Assembly: GCA_013151775.1 (NCBI GenBank)
Contig: JAADHO010000355.1
Location: 1 to 55,546 of the forward strand
DNA from: Deltaproteobacteria bacterium
Lineage (GTDB): Bacteria > Myxococcota_A > Polyangia > Polyangiales > Houyiibacteriaceae
DNA: 55,546 bases
Direction: 5' to 3'
Of the stretch, positions 1 to 17,573 are shown in pieces (position 1 is the stretch's first letter; each line of letters starts with the position of its first letter). The notes beneath the pieces were generated by a model, which did not search any database, was not told the DNA's origin, and saw nothing but the letters and a program-made list of their open reading frames with translations. The position numbers and the translations under genes were made by a program.

Positions 1-2789
1 GTGGCGCTCAGGTCATCGTGATCGATCCGCGGCGCACGGAGACGGTGGAGCGCACGGACGCCGAGTGGATCCCGATCCGCCCGGGCACGGACGGAGCGCT
101 CGCGCTGAGCATGCTCGAGGTGTTGATCGAGGAGGAACTCTACGACGAGAAGTTCGCCAAGGAGTGGTGCCACGGCTTCGACGAGCTGCGAACCTACGCG
201 CAGCACTTCACGCCCGAGGTCGCGGCAGACATCACGGGCGTGCCGGCTGAGAGCATCCGGCGCCTCGCGCGCGCCATCGCCAACACCAGCGGCGCCTGCC
301 CCGTGACCTACACCGGTCTCGAGTACTCCGACTCGGGCGTGCAGGCGATCCGCGCCGTGCACACGCTCTTCGCCTTGGCCGGTCAGCTCGACGTGCCCGG
401 AGGCGTCGGGCTCGCCATGCGCGGCGGACAGTTTCCGATCAACCGCAGCATGAACCAACCCAACCCGGACATCGCGCGCGCCGTCGCCCGCGACAGGTTC
501 CCCGTCTACAGCCACTACCGCGGCGAGTCCCACGCCCTCGGCTTGATCGACGCCGTGCAGAAGGGCGAGCCCTACCCGATTCGCGGCCTGATCATCCACG
601 GCGCGTCCATCCTCACGTCATGGCCTCAGACGCCCGTGTGGCGGGAGACGCTCGCCGCGCTCGACTTCCTCGTCTGCATCGACAGGCAGCGCACGGCGGA
701 CATGGCCTACGCCGACATCGTCCTGCCAGCGACGACGGGTTTCGAGATCCACTCCTACAACGTGTACGGCTCGATCTTTCGCGAGCGCGAGCGCTTGATC
801 GAGCCCGTGGGCGAGGCACGCAACGACTACCTGATCATGGCGGAGCTCGCGGCCCGTCTCGGCTATGGCGAACTCTATCCGCAGACGGAAGACGCCCTGC
901 TCGACGCCGTGCTCGAGGGCAGCGGCTACGGCATCGAGGACGTGCGCGAGGCGGGCGGCACGCTGCGCGTCGACGCGCCCATGATGGAGTACAAGAAGTG
1001 GGAGAAGGGCGGCCTGCGCGCCGATGGCGAGCCCGGCTTCGACACGCCGACGGGGAAATTCGAGATCCACTCGACGCTGCTCGAGGACTTCGGCTACGAG
1101 CCCTTGCCCAAGTACACGGAGCCCAAGGAGGGCCCGCTCGCGCAGCCCGAGCTCGCGGCAGACTTCCCGCTGGTCTTCAACTCGGGCGCGCGACCGCACA
1201 CGGATTTCCGCTCGCAGCATCACGGCATCAAGAGCCTGAACAGGGACAACCCGGAGCCCACCATCGAGCTCAATCGCGCAGACGCCGAGGCCCGCGACAT
1301 CGCCACGGGCGACTTGGTCTTGGTGTCGAGCCCGCGCGGCAGCGTGCCCTTCCGCGCTCGCGTCACGGACGACATCGTCGCCGGAGCCGTCGAGTGCAAC
1401 ATGGGTGGAGGCACCCCTGTGGGGGATACGGCGTGGCGCGAGTGGAACGTCAACCTGCTCACGGACGTGACGAACACAGACGAGATCTCCGGCTTCCCCG
1501 TCTACAAGGCGCTGCTCTGTCAGGTCGAGAAGCTCGAGAGCGGAGACGAGGCGAGTCGCGCTCGGGCCGAGAAGCGTGTTCGTGGTCGGCGGGCGACCTT
1601 CGCGGCGGCCAAGCAGAGGGCGAAGCCGAGTCGCCTCGTCTACCTCGACAACTCGGCGACGACGCCCGTGCTGCCCGCGGTGCGTGAAGCGATGGCGCCC
1701 TACCTGAACGAGGCCTTCGGCAACCCCTCGAGCATCCACGAAGCGGGGCGCGTGGCGCGCGAAGCCGTGGCAGAGTCGCGACGACGCATCGCCACTCTGC
1801 TCGGAGCGAGACCCAAGCGCATCATCTTCACGGGCGGCGGGTCCGAAGCGGACAACCTCGCCTTGATGGGCGTGATGTCCCGGCACGCGCCCGGCGACGC
1901 GCATCTCGTGGTGTCGGCCATCGAGCATCCGGCGATCCTGCGCACGGCGGAATTCCTCGAGCGCATGGGCTACGCCGTGACGCGCCTCGGAGTGGACGGC
2001 GCGGGCTTGGTGTCACCGGATGAGCTGCGCGCGGCGCTGCGTCCGGAGACCAAGCTCGTGAGTGTGATGCTCGCCAACAACGAGGTGGGCACCATCGAGC
2101 CCATCGCCGAACTCGCCGCCATCGCGCGCGAGGCGGGCGCCCTCTTCCACACGGACGCCGTGCAAGCCGTGGGCAAGATCCCCGTGGACGTCGCGACCCT
2201 CGGCGTCGATTTGCTCAGCCTTTCGGGACACAAGATCCACGCGCCCAAGGGCGTCGGCGCGCTCTACGTGCGCCGCGACGTCGAGCTGTGGAGCTTGATC
2301 CACGGCGGCAAGCAAGAGGGGGGCCTGCGCGCGGGCACGGAGAACGTCCCCGGCATCGTGGGGCTCGGAAAGGCGGCGGAGCTCGCGCACGAGAGCGTGA
2401 AGCAGGCGGACGTCATCGCTGTGCTGCGCGACGCGCTCGAGGCGGAGGTGAAGAAGCTCATCCCCGAGGCGCGGCGCAACGGCTCGAGCGAGCATCGCCT
2501 GCCCAACGTGCTCAACCTGACGCTGCCAGGCTTGCGCGGCGAGTCCCTCGTGATCGCCATGGATCAACGCGGCGTCGCGCTGTCGAGCGGCTCCGCCTGC
2601 AAGTCGGGCAGCCCCGAACCCACGCACGTCCTGCGCGCCATGGGCCTCAGCGACCCCGACGCCCACCAGAGCGTGCGCTTCTCCCTCTCCCACATGACCA
2701 CGCGGGAGGATCTCGACTACGCCACCACGGCGCTCGGCGAGGTGCTCGCGGAGCTCGCCACCACGGTGCGCTTCCTCTCGTGCAAGTGA
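1..2789 (+). CDS. Molybdopterin oxidoreductase (C-terminal part) fused to a complete NifS/IscS-type cysteine desulfurase; 5' end outside window
   Basis: The frame is open from base 3 to the TGA at 2787-2789, so the gene starts upstream of the window. Numbering from the in-frame GTG at 18, residues 1 to about 515 are the C-terminal two thirds of a DMSO-reductase-family (Mo/W-bis-PGD) subunit: nucleotide-binding segment with IDPRRTET, then GLIIHGASIL, ADIVLPATTGFE, DTPTGKFEI and the C-terminal domain (SQHHGIKSLN, ATGDLVLVSS). A basic linker of about 25 residues follows. From about 535 it is a class V aminotransferase fold: YLDNSATTP, GNPSSIH, FTGGGSEADN, SGHKIHAPKG with the PLP lysine K739, and SSGSACKSG with the sulfur-accepting C861. 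Cysteine desulfurases give persulfide sulfur to Fe-S and molybdenum cofactors; fusion to a molybdoenzyme suggests dedicated sulfuration of its own metal site (inference). The iron-sulfur N-terminus lies outside the window, so the substrate cannot be named. Confidence 0.93.
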   Translation, partial: GAQVIVIDPRRTETVERTDAEWIPIRPGTDGALALSMLEVLIEEELYDEKFAKEWCHGFDELRTYAQHFTPEVAADITGVPAESIRRLARAIANTSGACPVTYTGLEYSDSGVQAIRAVHTLFALAGQLDVPGGVGLAMRGGQFPINRSMNQPNPDIARAVARDRFPVYSHYRGESHALGLIDAVQKGEPYPIRGLIIHGASILTSWPQTPVWRETLAALDFLVCIDRQRTADMAYADIVLPATTGFEIHSYNVYGSIFRERERLIEPVGEARNDYLIMAELAARLGYGELYPQTEDALLDAVLEGSGYGIEDVREAGGTLRVDAPMMEYKKWEKGGLRADGEPGFDTPTGKFEIHSTLLEDFGYEPLPKYTEPKEGPLAQPELAADFPLVFNSGARPHTDFRSQHHGIKSLNRDNPEPTIELNRADAEARDIATGDLVLVSSPRGSVPFRARVTDDIVAGAVECNMGGGTPVGDTAWREWNVNLLTDVTNTDEISGFPVYKALLCQVEKLESGDEASRARAEKRVRGRRATFAAAKQRAKPSRLVYLDNSATTPVLPAVREAMAPYLNEAFGNPSSIHEAGRVAREAVAESRRRIATLLGARPKRIIFTGGGSEADNLALMGVMSRHAPGDAHLVVSAIEHPAILRTAEFLERMGYAVTRLGVDGAGLVSPDELRAALRPETKLVSVMLANNEVGTIEPIAELAAIAREAGALFHTDAVQAVGKIPVDVATLGVDLLSLSGHKIHAPKGVGALYVRRDVELWSLIHGGKQEGGLRAGTENVPGIVGLGKAAELAHESVKQADVIAVLRDALEAEVKKLIPEARRNGSSEHRLPNVLNLTLPGLRGESLVIAMDQRGVALSSGSACKSGSPEPTHVLRAMGLSDPDAHQSVRFSLSHMTTREDLDYATTALGEVLAELATTVRFLSCK

Positions 2790-8848: not shown

Positions 8849-11800
8849 ATGCGTGCACCCGCTCCTCGTATCACCGCTTTACGCGGTCTTCCGCTTCTCG
8901 TCGCCCTTGGCCTCGCAGCCTGCAGTACCGGAGGGCTGCCCCAGGGGCTGGGCTCGCCGACGCCTCTGGAGGGTGGGCCGCGCATCGTCTGGGATTTGGC
9001 CGCGGAGCCCTTGCCGGAGCTACCCTTCCCCAACGACGTCGCGACCTGGCCGGACCCCAGCTCACCCACGGGTCTGCGCATCAACGTCAGCCTGGTCGCA
9101 CCGACTCAGTTCGAGCGCGACACTCGGCGCCACTTCGACGAGCTGGACGGCTGGGGTACCTACGGGCCGGTCAGCGTCTCCTTCGATGCACCCCTCGACG
9201 TCCAGGACATCTACGATCGACAAGGGGGCAGCGCGCACTTCAGCGCGGCGGACTGGCCCAACCACGCCCTCTACCTGATCGACCTCGACACGGGCCTACC
9301 CGTGCCCCTCGACGTCAACAGCGGGAACTTCCAGTACGTGCTCGACAACCCCAACCAGTATTGGGAGAACGATCCCCACGCGGGCGAGTCGAACCTGATC
9401 CTCGAGACGCGCGAGGAGGACACCAACGGCAACGGCGTGCTCGACCCTGGTGAGGACACGGACTTCGACGGTGTGCTCGACCACCCGAACACCTTCGACC
9501 GTTTGGCGTCAGCCGATCCGGCCGAGCAGGTGGATGACACCCTGTGGTTCTACGAGCGCGAGACGAACACGCTCTTGCTGAGGCCGATCCTGCCGCTCCA
9601 AGGCCGGCATCACTACGCCATGGTCGTCACCGAACGAGTTCATGGCGAAGACGGTCTGCCCGTGCGCTCGCCCTTCGACGCTCGACAGCACGTGGCGCAG
9701 CGCGAGGCCTTGGCGGCGCTGCCGGACATCTTCCGCACGCGCCCCGATCTCTACGGCAACCTGGCCGAGGAGGGCTGGGACGGCGTGGCCTTCGCCTGGA
9801 AGTTCACCACCCAGTCGACCACCAACGACCTCGACGCCCTGCGCGCAGGCCTCTACGGAGAAGGCTCGCTCTCCTGGTTGAAGGACGAGTTCCCGCCGGA
9901 CTTTGCCCCGGCCCCCATGCAAGGCGGCCGAGCCTCCGACGGCTGTGTGAACGACGGACCTCAGATCTACATCGCTACCGCCGACCAGTTCATTCGCGCC
10001 CTCGACACGATCGCGCGCACGGTGCTCGGGCTAGACCCCGATCAGGCCGACGTGGTGCGCCTCAGCTACGGCAACCTGTCCCATGTGGTGATCGCCTACT
10101 TCGACACGCCCTACCTGCTCGGTGAGCCCTACCCCGAACCGGGCACCTCGAACATCCGCGAGGTCATCGAGATGGACGCCGACAAGGGCACGCTGCGGGT
10201 GGTCCACCAGACGATCACTCTGCTCGCCTTCGTGCCCAAAGAGTCGCCCAGCAACATGCAGCCATTCCCCGTGGCCTTCTATGTGCACGGCCACGGCAGC
10301 AACGCCGCCGAGCCGCTGCCCTTCGCGGGCTTCATGATCGAGCACGGGGTGACGGCCGTGATGATCAACGCCGAGAACCACGGCCTCGCGCTGCCGCCAG
10401 GCTCGGACATCATCGTGCGCAGCTTCTTCTCCAACGAGTGCTTGAAGCCCATGTTCGACGCCATCGTCTCGGGTCGAGGCCATGACATCAACGGCAACGG
10501 AGAGATCGACAGCGGCGGCGACTTCTGGACCGCCTACGTCTTCCACACGCGCGACGTCGTGCGACAGACGGCCTTCGATCACATGCGCACGCTTCAGCTT
10601 CTGCGCTCCTTCGACGGACGCATGAGCGACGCCGTGACCTTCGAGCACGGCCCCGGCAACGATCCCATCGTGTTCGACGGAACGATCCCAGGCGTCGGCC
10701 CGATGGTCGCGGGGGACTTCGACGGCAACGGGCGACCCGACTTCGGCGGCCCCGACGGACGCTATTTCTTCACCGGTGGATCCCTCGGCGGGATCATCAG
10801 CGGGGTGATGGCGGGAGCAGAGCCGGCGATCTCGGCCTCCGCGCCCATCGTAGGCGCCGGCGGACTGATGGACGTCGGCGTACGCACGGTGAACGGCGCC
10901 GTGCTGCCCGCGATGCACCTGCGCATGATGGGCCCCTTCGTGATGAGCGCGCCCAAGGCCGAGCGTGGCGACGACACCTCCTGCGCAGAGGGCGAAAACA
11001 GCCTCTACTGGCTCACCAACAATGTCGCTCGCAAGTCGCGCACGGAGATGGCGTGCATCAGCGACGAGGACGCCGCCAGCGACTCCGTGATGGTCGTCCG
11101 CAACTTGAGCAACGGCGAGGTCACGTGCAGCGGGGCGGCCGGTGGCGTGACTGGACGCTTCCGCGCGCCGATCCCGAGCGACGCGGACGACCTGATCCAG
11201 ATCGAGTTCTACCGCTCGGCGGCCATGGACATGGACTACGCCAACTGCCAGTTCCGCTCGGGGCGTCGCGTGCCCGACCGACAGGTCACGACCTGGGAGG
11301 TGGGCAACGGCCGCAACGGCACCGGAATGTGCCGCACATGCGCGAGCTATCAGCAGCGGACCTGGAGCGCCGGGGACACCTTGGTCGCGCCCTCCGAGGG
11401 CTTCGGCCTGCGACGACAGACGCCCGACCTGAGGCGCCTGCTCTTCTTGGCGCAGGTCGGCCTCGATCCGGGCGATCCCATCAACTACGCGCGGCGCGTC
11501 TTCCTCGACCCCGTGCAGCAGGCGGACGTCACGCCACATCCGGTCAACCTGCTGGTCGTGAACTCCATCGGCGATCCCAACGTGCCCGTCTCGACGGGCA
11601 ACGCCTACGCGCGCGCGGCCGGCGTCCTGCCCTTCATGCCCGCGGACGCGCCGGACGACTTCGCCGACTACCGCGCGCCCGCTAGCTTCGCCGGACGCTA
11701 CCCGGGCGCGGCCTCGCCCAACGACGTGCTGATCCAACACCATGTGCTCGAGGGCGTTGACCGCCTCGGCCGCAACCCGATCGCCGGTGGCCCGACGGAC

Positions 11801-12215
11801 TACCTCTTCGACGCGGACGACATGTCGGAGGGTCGGCAGGTCTTCACGGCCGACGGAAGTCGCCAAGAGTCCGATCCTACGGTCGAATCCTGGCAGGCGC
11901 CTCGCCTCGCTCCGCCCCTGCGCTGGCGCGAGCCGAGCCGCGACCTCCCCGTCGGACGACGTGTGGAGCCCCGAGATCGGTCAAGGCATCAGCGGAGTCT
12001 TGAACAACTACGCGATCCCGGACGGTGTACACGGCTTCGATCAGATCGTGTATGGACCCGATGTTCCATGGGATACATCTCAGTTTGTGATCAACTTGGT
12101 CGCACGCTACGGCGCCACCGGTGGCACGGACATTCGCTACTTCACGGACCCCGACGGCTACACCTGCCTCGAAGACTCGTCCTGCGACTTTCTACCGAGC
12201 GCGTCGACTCCCTGA
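8849..12215 (+). CDS. Very large secreted lipoprotein with alpha/beta-hydrolase core, carrying a one-base frameshift near 11945-11951
   Basis: From ATG 8849 a signal peptide with lipobox LGLAAC leads into about 1,120 residues. Seen: Asp-rich calcium-type loops (DTNGNGVLDPGED, DFDGVLD, DINGNGEIDSG, DFDGNGRPDF), an oxyanion-type YVHGHGSNAA and a nucleophile elbow GGSLGG (S645), giving a bacterial secreted hydrolase architecture. Up to about 11945 the protein is in the frame of the start. Beyond it that frame turns into Arg-rich nonsense, while the +1 frame continues as sensible protein (DDVWSPEIGQG, PDGVHGF, TGGTDIRYF) to the TGA at 12213-12215. The break coincides with a CCCC run (11947-11950); removal of one C restores one frame. 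The likely catalytic histidine (GVHGF) lies after the break. Whether this is a mutation, a sequence error or slippage cannot be decided here. Confidence 0.85.
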
Positions 12216-12226
12216 ACGCAGCGGTC

Positions 12227-12316
12227 ATGTGTGACTGTGCCTGCATGTGTGACTGTGCCTGCATGTGTGACTGTGCCTGCATGTGTGACTGTGCCTGCAT
12301 GTGTGACTGTGCCTGT
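12227..12316. repeat. Five tandem copies of an 18-bp unit
   Basis: ATGTGTGACTGTGCCTGC is repeated five times head to tail (one mismatch in the last copy), 11 bp after the restored stop of the large lipoprotein. In the unshifted frame it would code for a Cys-rich MCDCAC hexapeptide repeat, but that frame is reached only through the frameshift, so I treat it as non-coding minisatellite DNA. Confidence 0.9.
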
Positions 12317-12471
12317 GTGTGCCGTGCCTTTGCGTCACGCCGTGAAGAAACGGACACAGGGATCACAGCGCGAAATCGGCCAGGGGGTCAGTTTCCCGCA
12401 GGTTGTGGAACTTGGGAGCCCGTCGCTGCTTGGCATCGACTGTGCAGTAGCTAGCGGATGCTGCTGCACCC

Positions 12472-16976: not shown

Positions 16977-17573
16977 TCACATCGGAGAACAGAAGAGATG
17001 AAGAGCGCCCCGTGTGTCGAGGTCTTGGTGGATGCCGCAATCTGGCACGTCCACGCTGCGCGCGCTGCGGGCGCTGTCGAGGACGCGGCGCGTGTGGCTG
17101 CTCGCGGGGGCGTGCGCGACCCGCTCGAGCAGGTCGTCCGCGACGAGAATCGGGTGACCGCGACGTCCCGCATGGCTCGGGCGCAGGAGCTCCGCGGGCT
17201 CGTAGCGGTAGGCGTCGAGCAGCGCGGCGACGGTCGCCGGGGACACGCGTGGGTGGTCCACCAGGGAGACGACGAGCGCGTCGTAGCCGAAGGCGCGTGC
17301 GACCTCCGCCGCGCGCTTGATGGAGGCGAACATGCCCTGCTCGGGCGCGCTCACGCGCAGGCTGCGCTGCACACCGATTGCCGCGCGGATCTCGGCTTCG
17401 TGCGGAGGCGCGACGGTGGCCAGAGCGCGCTGACAGCCTCCGCGACACAGAGTCTCGAGGGCGCGCAGCACGAAGGCTTGGCCCTCGATCTCCGCCAGCG
17501 CCTTGACGCAGCGCGCGCGCCTCGAGGCGCCGGCCGCGAGCACGACACCGAGAGCCTGCGGTCGCGGGCTCAT
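16977..17573 (-). CDS. MobA/MocA-like nucleotidyltransferase (molybdenum cofactor cytidylyltransferase type)
   Basis: 198 residues from the ATG at 17573, which overlaps the stop of the preceding subunit gene by 4 bases (ATGA), so it is translationally coupled. It has the nucleotidyltransferase start VVLAAGASRRARCVKAL (a degenerate form of AAGxSxRMGxxK), VSLVDHPRVSP for metal binding, GRRGHPILV, and QDLDTRGAL at the C-terminus. MocA enzymes convert molybdopterin to the cytosine dinucleotide form carried by xanthine-dehydrogenase-family enzymes; being last in an operon for such an enzyme fits exactly. Loss of the usual Arg-Met-Gly in the loop is unusual. Confidence 0.85.
   Translation of the reverse strand: MSPRPQALGVVLAAGASRRARCVKALAEIEGQAFVLRALETLCRGGCQRALATVAPPHEAEIRAAIGVQRSLRVSAPEQGMFASIKRAAEVARAFGYDALVVSLVDHPRVSPATVAALLDAYRYEPAELLRPSHAGRRGHPILVADDLLERVAHAPASSHTRRVLDSARSARSVDVPDCGIHQDLDTRGALHLFCSPM

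Follow-up and report, generated by a model that had tools for sequence, protein, structure and literature searches.

The metallopterin-dependent ergothioneine synthase MES was described by Beliaeva and Seebeck (JACS Au 2022; PMC9516567) as a single chain in which an N-terminal acetylene-hydratase-like bis-MGD module is followed by a C-terminal cysteine desulfurase. The enzyme of Caldithrix abyssi, CaMES, is 1136 aa long, and desulfurase activity was found for its C-terminal module. E. coli carrying any of four MES produced the antioxidant ergothioneine; production was lost in CaMES mutants of C153, K952, C1074 and C1135, and the C1097S mutation caused a two-fold loss, with half of production kept. 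Two complementary inactive variants did not rescue each other, so sulfur stays on a single chain during transfer; exchange of sulfur between ergothioneine and trimethylhistidine persisted in a variant whose desulfurase was dead (PMC9516567). The imidazole was tentatively proposed to attack a sulfido group on Mo(VI), which a persulfide restores in every cycle; both the precise relay and this attack on Mo(VI)=S are unproven proposals, and purification of full-length CaMES failed (PMC9516567). The discovery criterion for MES was a genome without EgtB or EanB, and the enzyme was described as encoded exclusively in anaerobes. EgtB, an O2-dependent non-heme iron enzyme, and the rhodanese-like EanB likewise serve sulfurization of N-alpha-trimethylhistidine (TMH) supplied by EgtD-type methyltransferases, and both are unrelated to MES (PMC9516567).

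The window, i.e. the whole analysed stretch of 55,546 nt from a myxobacterial genome of the family Houyiibacteriaceae, is a contig end of an assembly in 460 contigs. Its third reading frame is open for 928 codons, from base 3 to a stop ending at 2789, with zero internal stops. A whole-genome search located the upstream half of the gene, which the preliminary description had left to be found: within this genome, contig C118 terminates with the 29 residues that open the window frame, and the 91 bases at its end recur exactly at the start of the window. Merging the two contigs yields one frame from ATG to stop, encoding 1144 aa. The features are as follows, with residues numbered on the joined protein.

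Contig C118 end, L119:6699-7435: residues 1-216 of the predicted MES, plus the 91-base overlap
Window 3..2789, + strand: predicted MES gene, residues 217-1144 and stop (open frame, exact 91-base overlap, homologues of the same length)
Window 3..1535, + strand: C-terminal part of the bis-MGD metal-binding module, Molybdopterin and Molydop_binding (Pfam; relative of 2e7z)
Window 1536..1634, + strand: basic linker of ~33 residues, variable, no stop (length and sequence differ among homologues)
Window 1635..2786, + strand: PLP cysteine desulfurase module of NifS/IscS type (TIGR03402, E 1.9e-147; solved IscS and NFS1 relatives)
Window 2232..2234, + strand: K960, PLP lysine, equivalent to CaMES K952 by position and motif (essential in CaMES)
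Window 2598..2600, + strand: C1082, persulfide cysteine, equivalent to CaMES C1074 (99 % conserved; essential in CaMES)
Window 2667..2669, + strand: Q1105, where CaMES has C1097 (Cys in 94 % of homologues)
Window 2781..2783, + strand: C1143, penultimate cysteine, equivalent to CaMES C1135 and proposed relay (in 66/66 covering rows; essential in CaMES)

The 928-residue frame has Pfam matches to Molybdopterin over residues 2-284, to Molydop_binding over 396-503 and to Aminotran_5 over 546-906, confirming the earlier reading of an uninterrupted frame that joins the C-terminal part of a DMSO-reductase-family molybdoenzyme to a complete NifS-type enzyme. The PLP lysine and active cysteine given there as K739 and C861 are correct if numbered from the GTG at base 18, which places them on the codons AAG (2232-2234) and TGC (2598-2600). 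The basic linker was likewise seen, with ~33 residues (ESGDEASRARAEKRVRGRRATFAAAKQRAKPSR) rather than about 25. The N-terminal part contributes the motif C-x2-C-x3-C-x25-C (C23, C26, C30 and C56), the pattern expected for a 4Fe-4S cluster. The solved structure closest to the metal module is that of acetylene hydratase (2e7z, E 5.8e-51), and searches with either module found no solved MES structure. Acetylene hydratase is a W-bis-MGD enzyme with a cysteine ligand that hydrates acetylene; unlike the protein of this genome, it has no desulfurase module. NifS and IscS share the PLP lysine and persulfide cysteine of the C-terminal module, but they are free-standing and serve several acceptors, whereas here the desulfurase is fused and carries a conserved C-terminal cysteine.

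Acetylene hydratase was also reported as the nearest solved relative of the CaMES metal module (PMC9516567), and the likeness to MES of C. abyssi and its relatives extends to domain order, length, the presence of EgtD in the genome, the four Fe-S cysteines, the metal-ligand cysteine, the PLP lysine and both essential persulfide cysteines. By the numbering published in PMC9516567, as opposed to an aligned CaMES sequence, C153, K952, C1074 and C1135 map to C161, K960, C1082 and C1143 with a constant offset of +8; C161, the metal ligand, is 99 % conserved. Differences from CaMES are the glutamine at the position of C1097, which is shared with the homologue L115 from Oligoflexia, the location of egtD on another contig and the presence of heme-copper oxidases. 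C1097 is not treated as defining, because the C1097S mutant kept half its production. The product is, at a probability of roughly 0.93, an MES making ergothioneine from TMH and cysteine sulfur. The claim that this architecture was undescribed does not stand, since it has been in print since 2022 (PMC9516567); the enzyme is already known, and only the host and the breadth of the gene's spread are new.

By analogy with the studied homologues, EgtD, encoded elsewhere in the genome, would make TMH from histidine, and the PLP desulfurase would draw sulfur from cysteine and bind it as a persulfide at C1082. From there the sulfur would reach a Mo or W atom in the bis-MGD cofactor held by C161, with C1143 at the chain's own C-terminus as the probable relay. 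Attack of the TMH imidazole on the metal-bound sulfido group would yield ergothioneine, and the persulfide would supply the reduced metal with new sulfur before the next turnover. The suggestion that a tethered desulfurase feeds a terminal sulfido ligand agrees in this respect with the published proposal, which draws on mutants and isotopes, though not as a permanent ligand. Formate dehydrogenase maturation, the frame in which the idea was first put, is inapt: in MES the metal-bound sulfur goes to TMH and is replaced at every turnover.

The host genome contains one EgtD, on contig C457 (TIGR03438, 307 bits against a cut-off of 290.9), which is related to solved EgtD structures and does not adjoin the MES gene; no EgtB over cut-off was found in this genome. 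Elsewhere EgtD exceeds the cut-off in 42/50 other fusion-bearing genomes, with a match of any strength in 46/50, and in 22 loci egtD is found beside the fusion or not far from it. Because 100/179 genomes of the order Polyangiales also have EgtD over cut-off, co-occurrence of EgtD and the fusion alone is weak evidence, and more weight falls on adjacency and on the matching residues. EgtB over cut-off accompanies MES in 7/50 carriers, L097 and L098 among them; egtB directly adjoins egtD in the genomes of L097, L098, L046 and L063. Thiorhodococcus mannitoliphagus DSM 18266 has MES together with EgtB.

A search for EgtD found no match in the genomes of L042, L079, L095 and L096, which speaks for a member of the MES fold using the same chemistry on a different heterocycle or histidine derivative; the authors of the MES study themselves suggest that further heterocycle-sulfurizing enzymes may exist (PMC9516567). 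For the present protein such a substrate is improbable, as its genome has EgtD, lacks EgtB over cut-off, and every residue known to be essential is retained. The L095 and L096 proteins are among the more divergent fusions, at 56 % identity, and their hosts may rely on a different methyltransferase or take up TMH from outside, or the enzyme may act on a different substrate.

Less probable still is that the protein is a molybdoenzyme with a redox function whose tethered desulfurase acts as a maturase, placing a lasting Mo=S ligand on it. The sequence does resemble formate dehydrogenases and DMSO reductases, and IscS-derived sulfido ligands are known from formate dehydrogenase. However, the protein without its N-terminal 216 residues scores 188 bits with TIGR01591 (formate dehydrogenase alpha), far under the curated 666, the recurrent neighbour is egtD, and in homologues the sulfur goes to TMH (PMC9516567). 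A formate dehydrogenase as such is rejected because of the neighbours and the published homologue.

In public genomes, taken at one per species, 80 loci with homologues were found, most of which match the entire 928-residue query at 55-70 % identity; L115 reaches 83 %. A single frame, typically of ~1130-1190 residues, spans both modules in nearly all loci, and more than 60 homologues from many phyla carry the same fusion uninterrupted. In an alignment of 72 rows (frames over 1000 aa, own protein included) the four Fe-S cysteines, C161 and C1082 are present in 99 %, the penultimate cysteine is kept in all 66 rows covering its position, and the linker is variable. Recurrence of the two-domain order in other genomes, set beforehand as a test of the fusion, is thereby borne out, and among these loci no relative was found with two separate genes and an ordinary stop at the junction. 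Where loci are broken, the causes are contig ends, N-masked stretches (L086, L108) or frame changes within the metal module, away from the junction (L113, L117). On the gammaproteobacterial contig of L116 (1-1700) the MES frame gives way to unrelated sequence close to where the metal module ends, through either a rearrangement or a chimeric contig. The window's position at a contig end of a 460-contig assembly could invite the reading that an assembly error or frameshift merged two adjacent genes, but the chance of this is negligible and the artefact is excluded, because the fusion is conserved in dozens of independent assemblies across many phyla, including that of the cultured Thiorhodococcus mannitoliphagus, and an enzyme of this architecture is already published. 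The fused gene is real.

Going by record titles, carriers of the fusion include members of Gemmatimonadota, Calditrichota, Chloroflexota, Acidobacteriota, Planctomycetota, Myxococcota, Bdellovibrionota, Actinomycetota and Pseudomonadota, with one bin labelled Thaumarchaeota; most are metagenome bins. There is no new enzyme here, and MES is spread more broadly than reported, across many bacterial phyla. The additional homologues, one of them from a cultured purple sulfur bacterium, widen the choice for purification. The host genome has three heme-copper oxidase genes, and a CtaD-like match (E up to 1e-60) occurs in 27/51 carriers, 12 of them over the curated cut-off. Since oxidases of this kind are encoded by the host and by roughly half of the carriers sampled, the description of MES as exclusively anaerobic no longer fits, although an oxidase gene is no proof of aerobic growth; the distribution bears on whether ergothioneine made by MES serves anaerobic life only.

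Among the searched genomes of Houyiibacteriaceae the fusion is found in the host alone, and an EgtB match is present in 26/34 genomes of the family. The only other genome of the host genus (G018) is 81 % complete. With EgtD of five genomes of the family the host EgtD shares 51-61 % identity, but with EgtD of the L115 genome 36 %. In a quick tree the MES protein clusters with L115. The simplest reading of this quick tree and these incomplete genomes is that MES was gained by transfer beside a resident EgtD and that EgtB was lost. Joint transfer of egtD and MES from an L115-like donor is rejected on the EgtD identities. Tentatively, and at somewhat less than even odds, an oxygen-respiring myxobacterial lineage may have replaced its O2-dependent EgtB with a horizontally acquired MES while keeping the ancestral EgtD, in which case MES would function in oxygen-exposed organisms and would not be confined to strict anaerobes. 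Contamination of the bin is thought unlikely: the window gene at 8849-12454 has counterparts of 54-60 % identity in eight genomes of the same family, and the G+C content is even.

A search for MobA gave a best score of 60.7 bits against a cut-off of 151.85, which only 1/14 control genomes exceeded. Within the window, 17046-17549 (- strand) gives a very weak MobA-like match of 25 bits, probably another nucleotidyltransferase. On contig C418 (L122) of genome G000 a second NifS-like desulfurase seems to be broken into neighbouring pieces at 1249-1941 and 1943-2362; one TGA was counted in the first of them.
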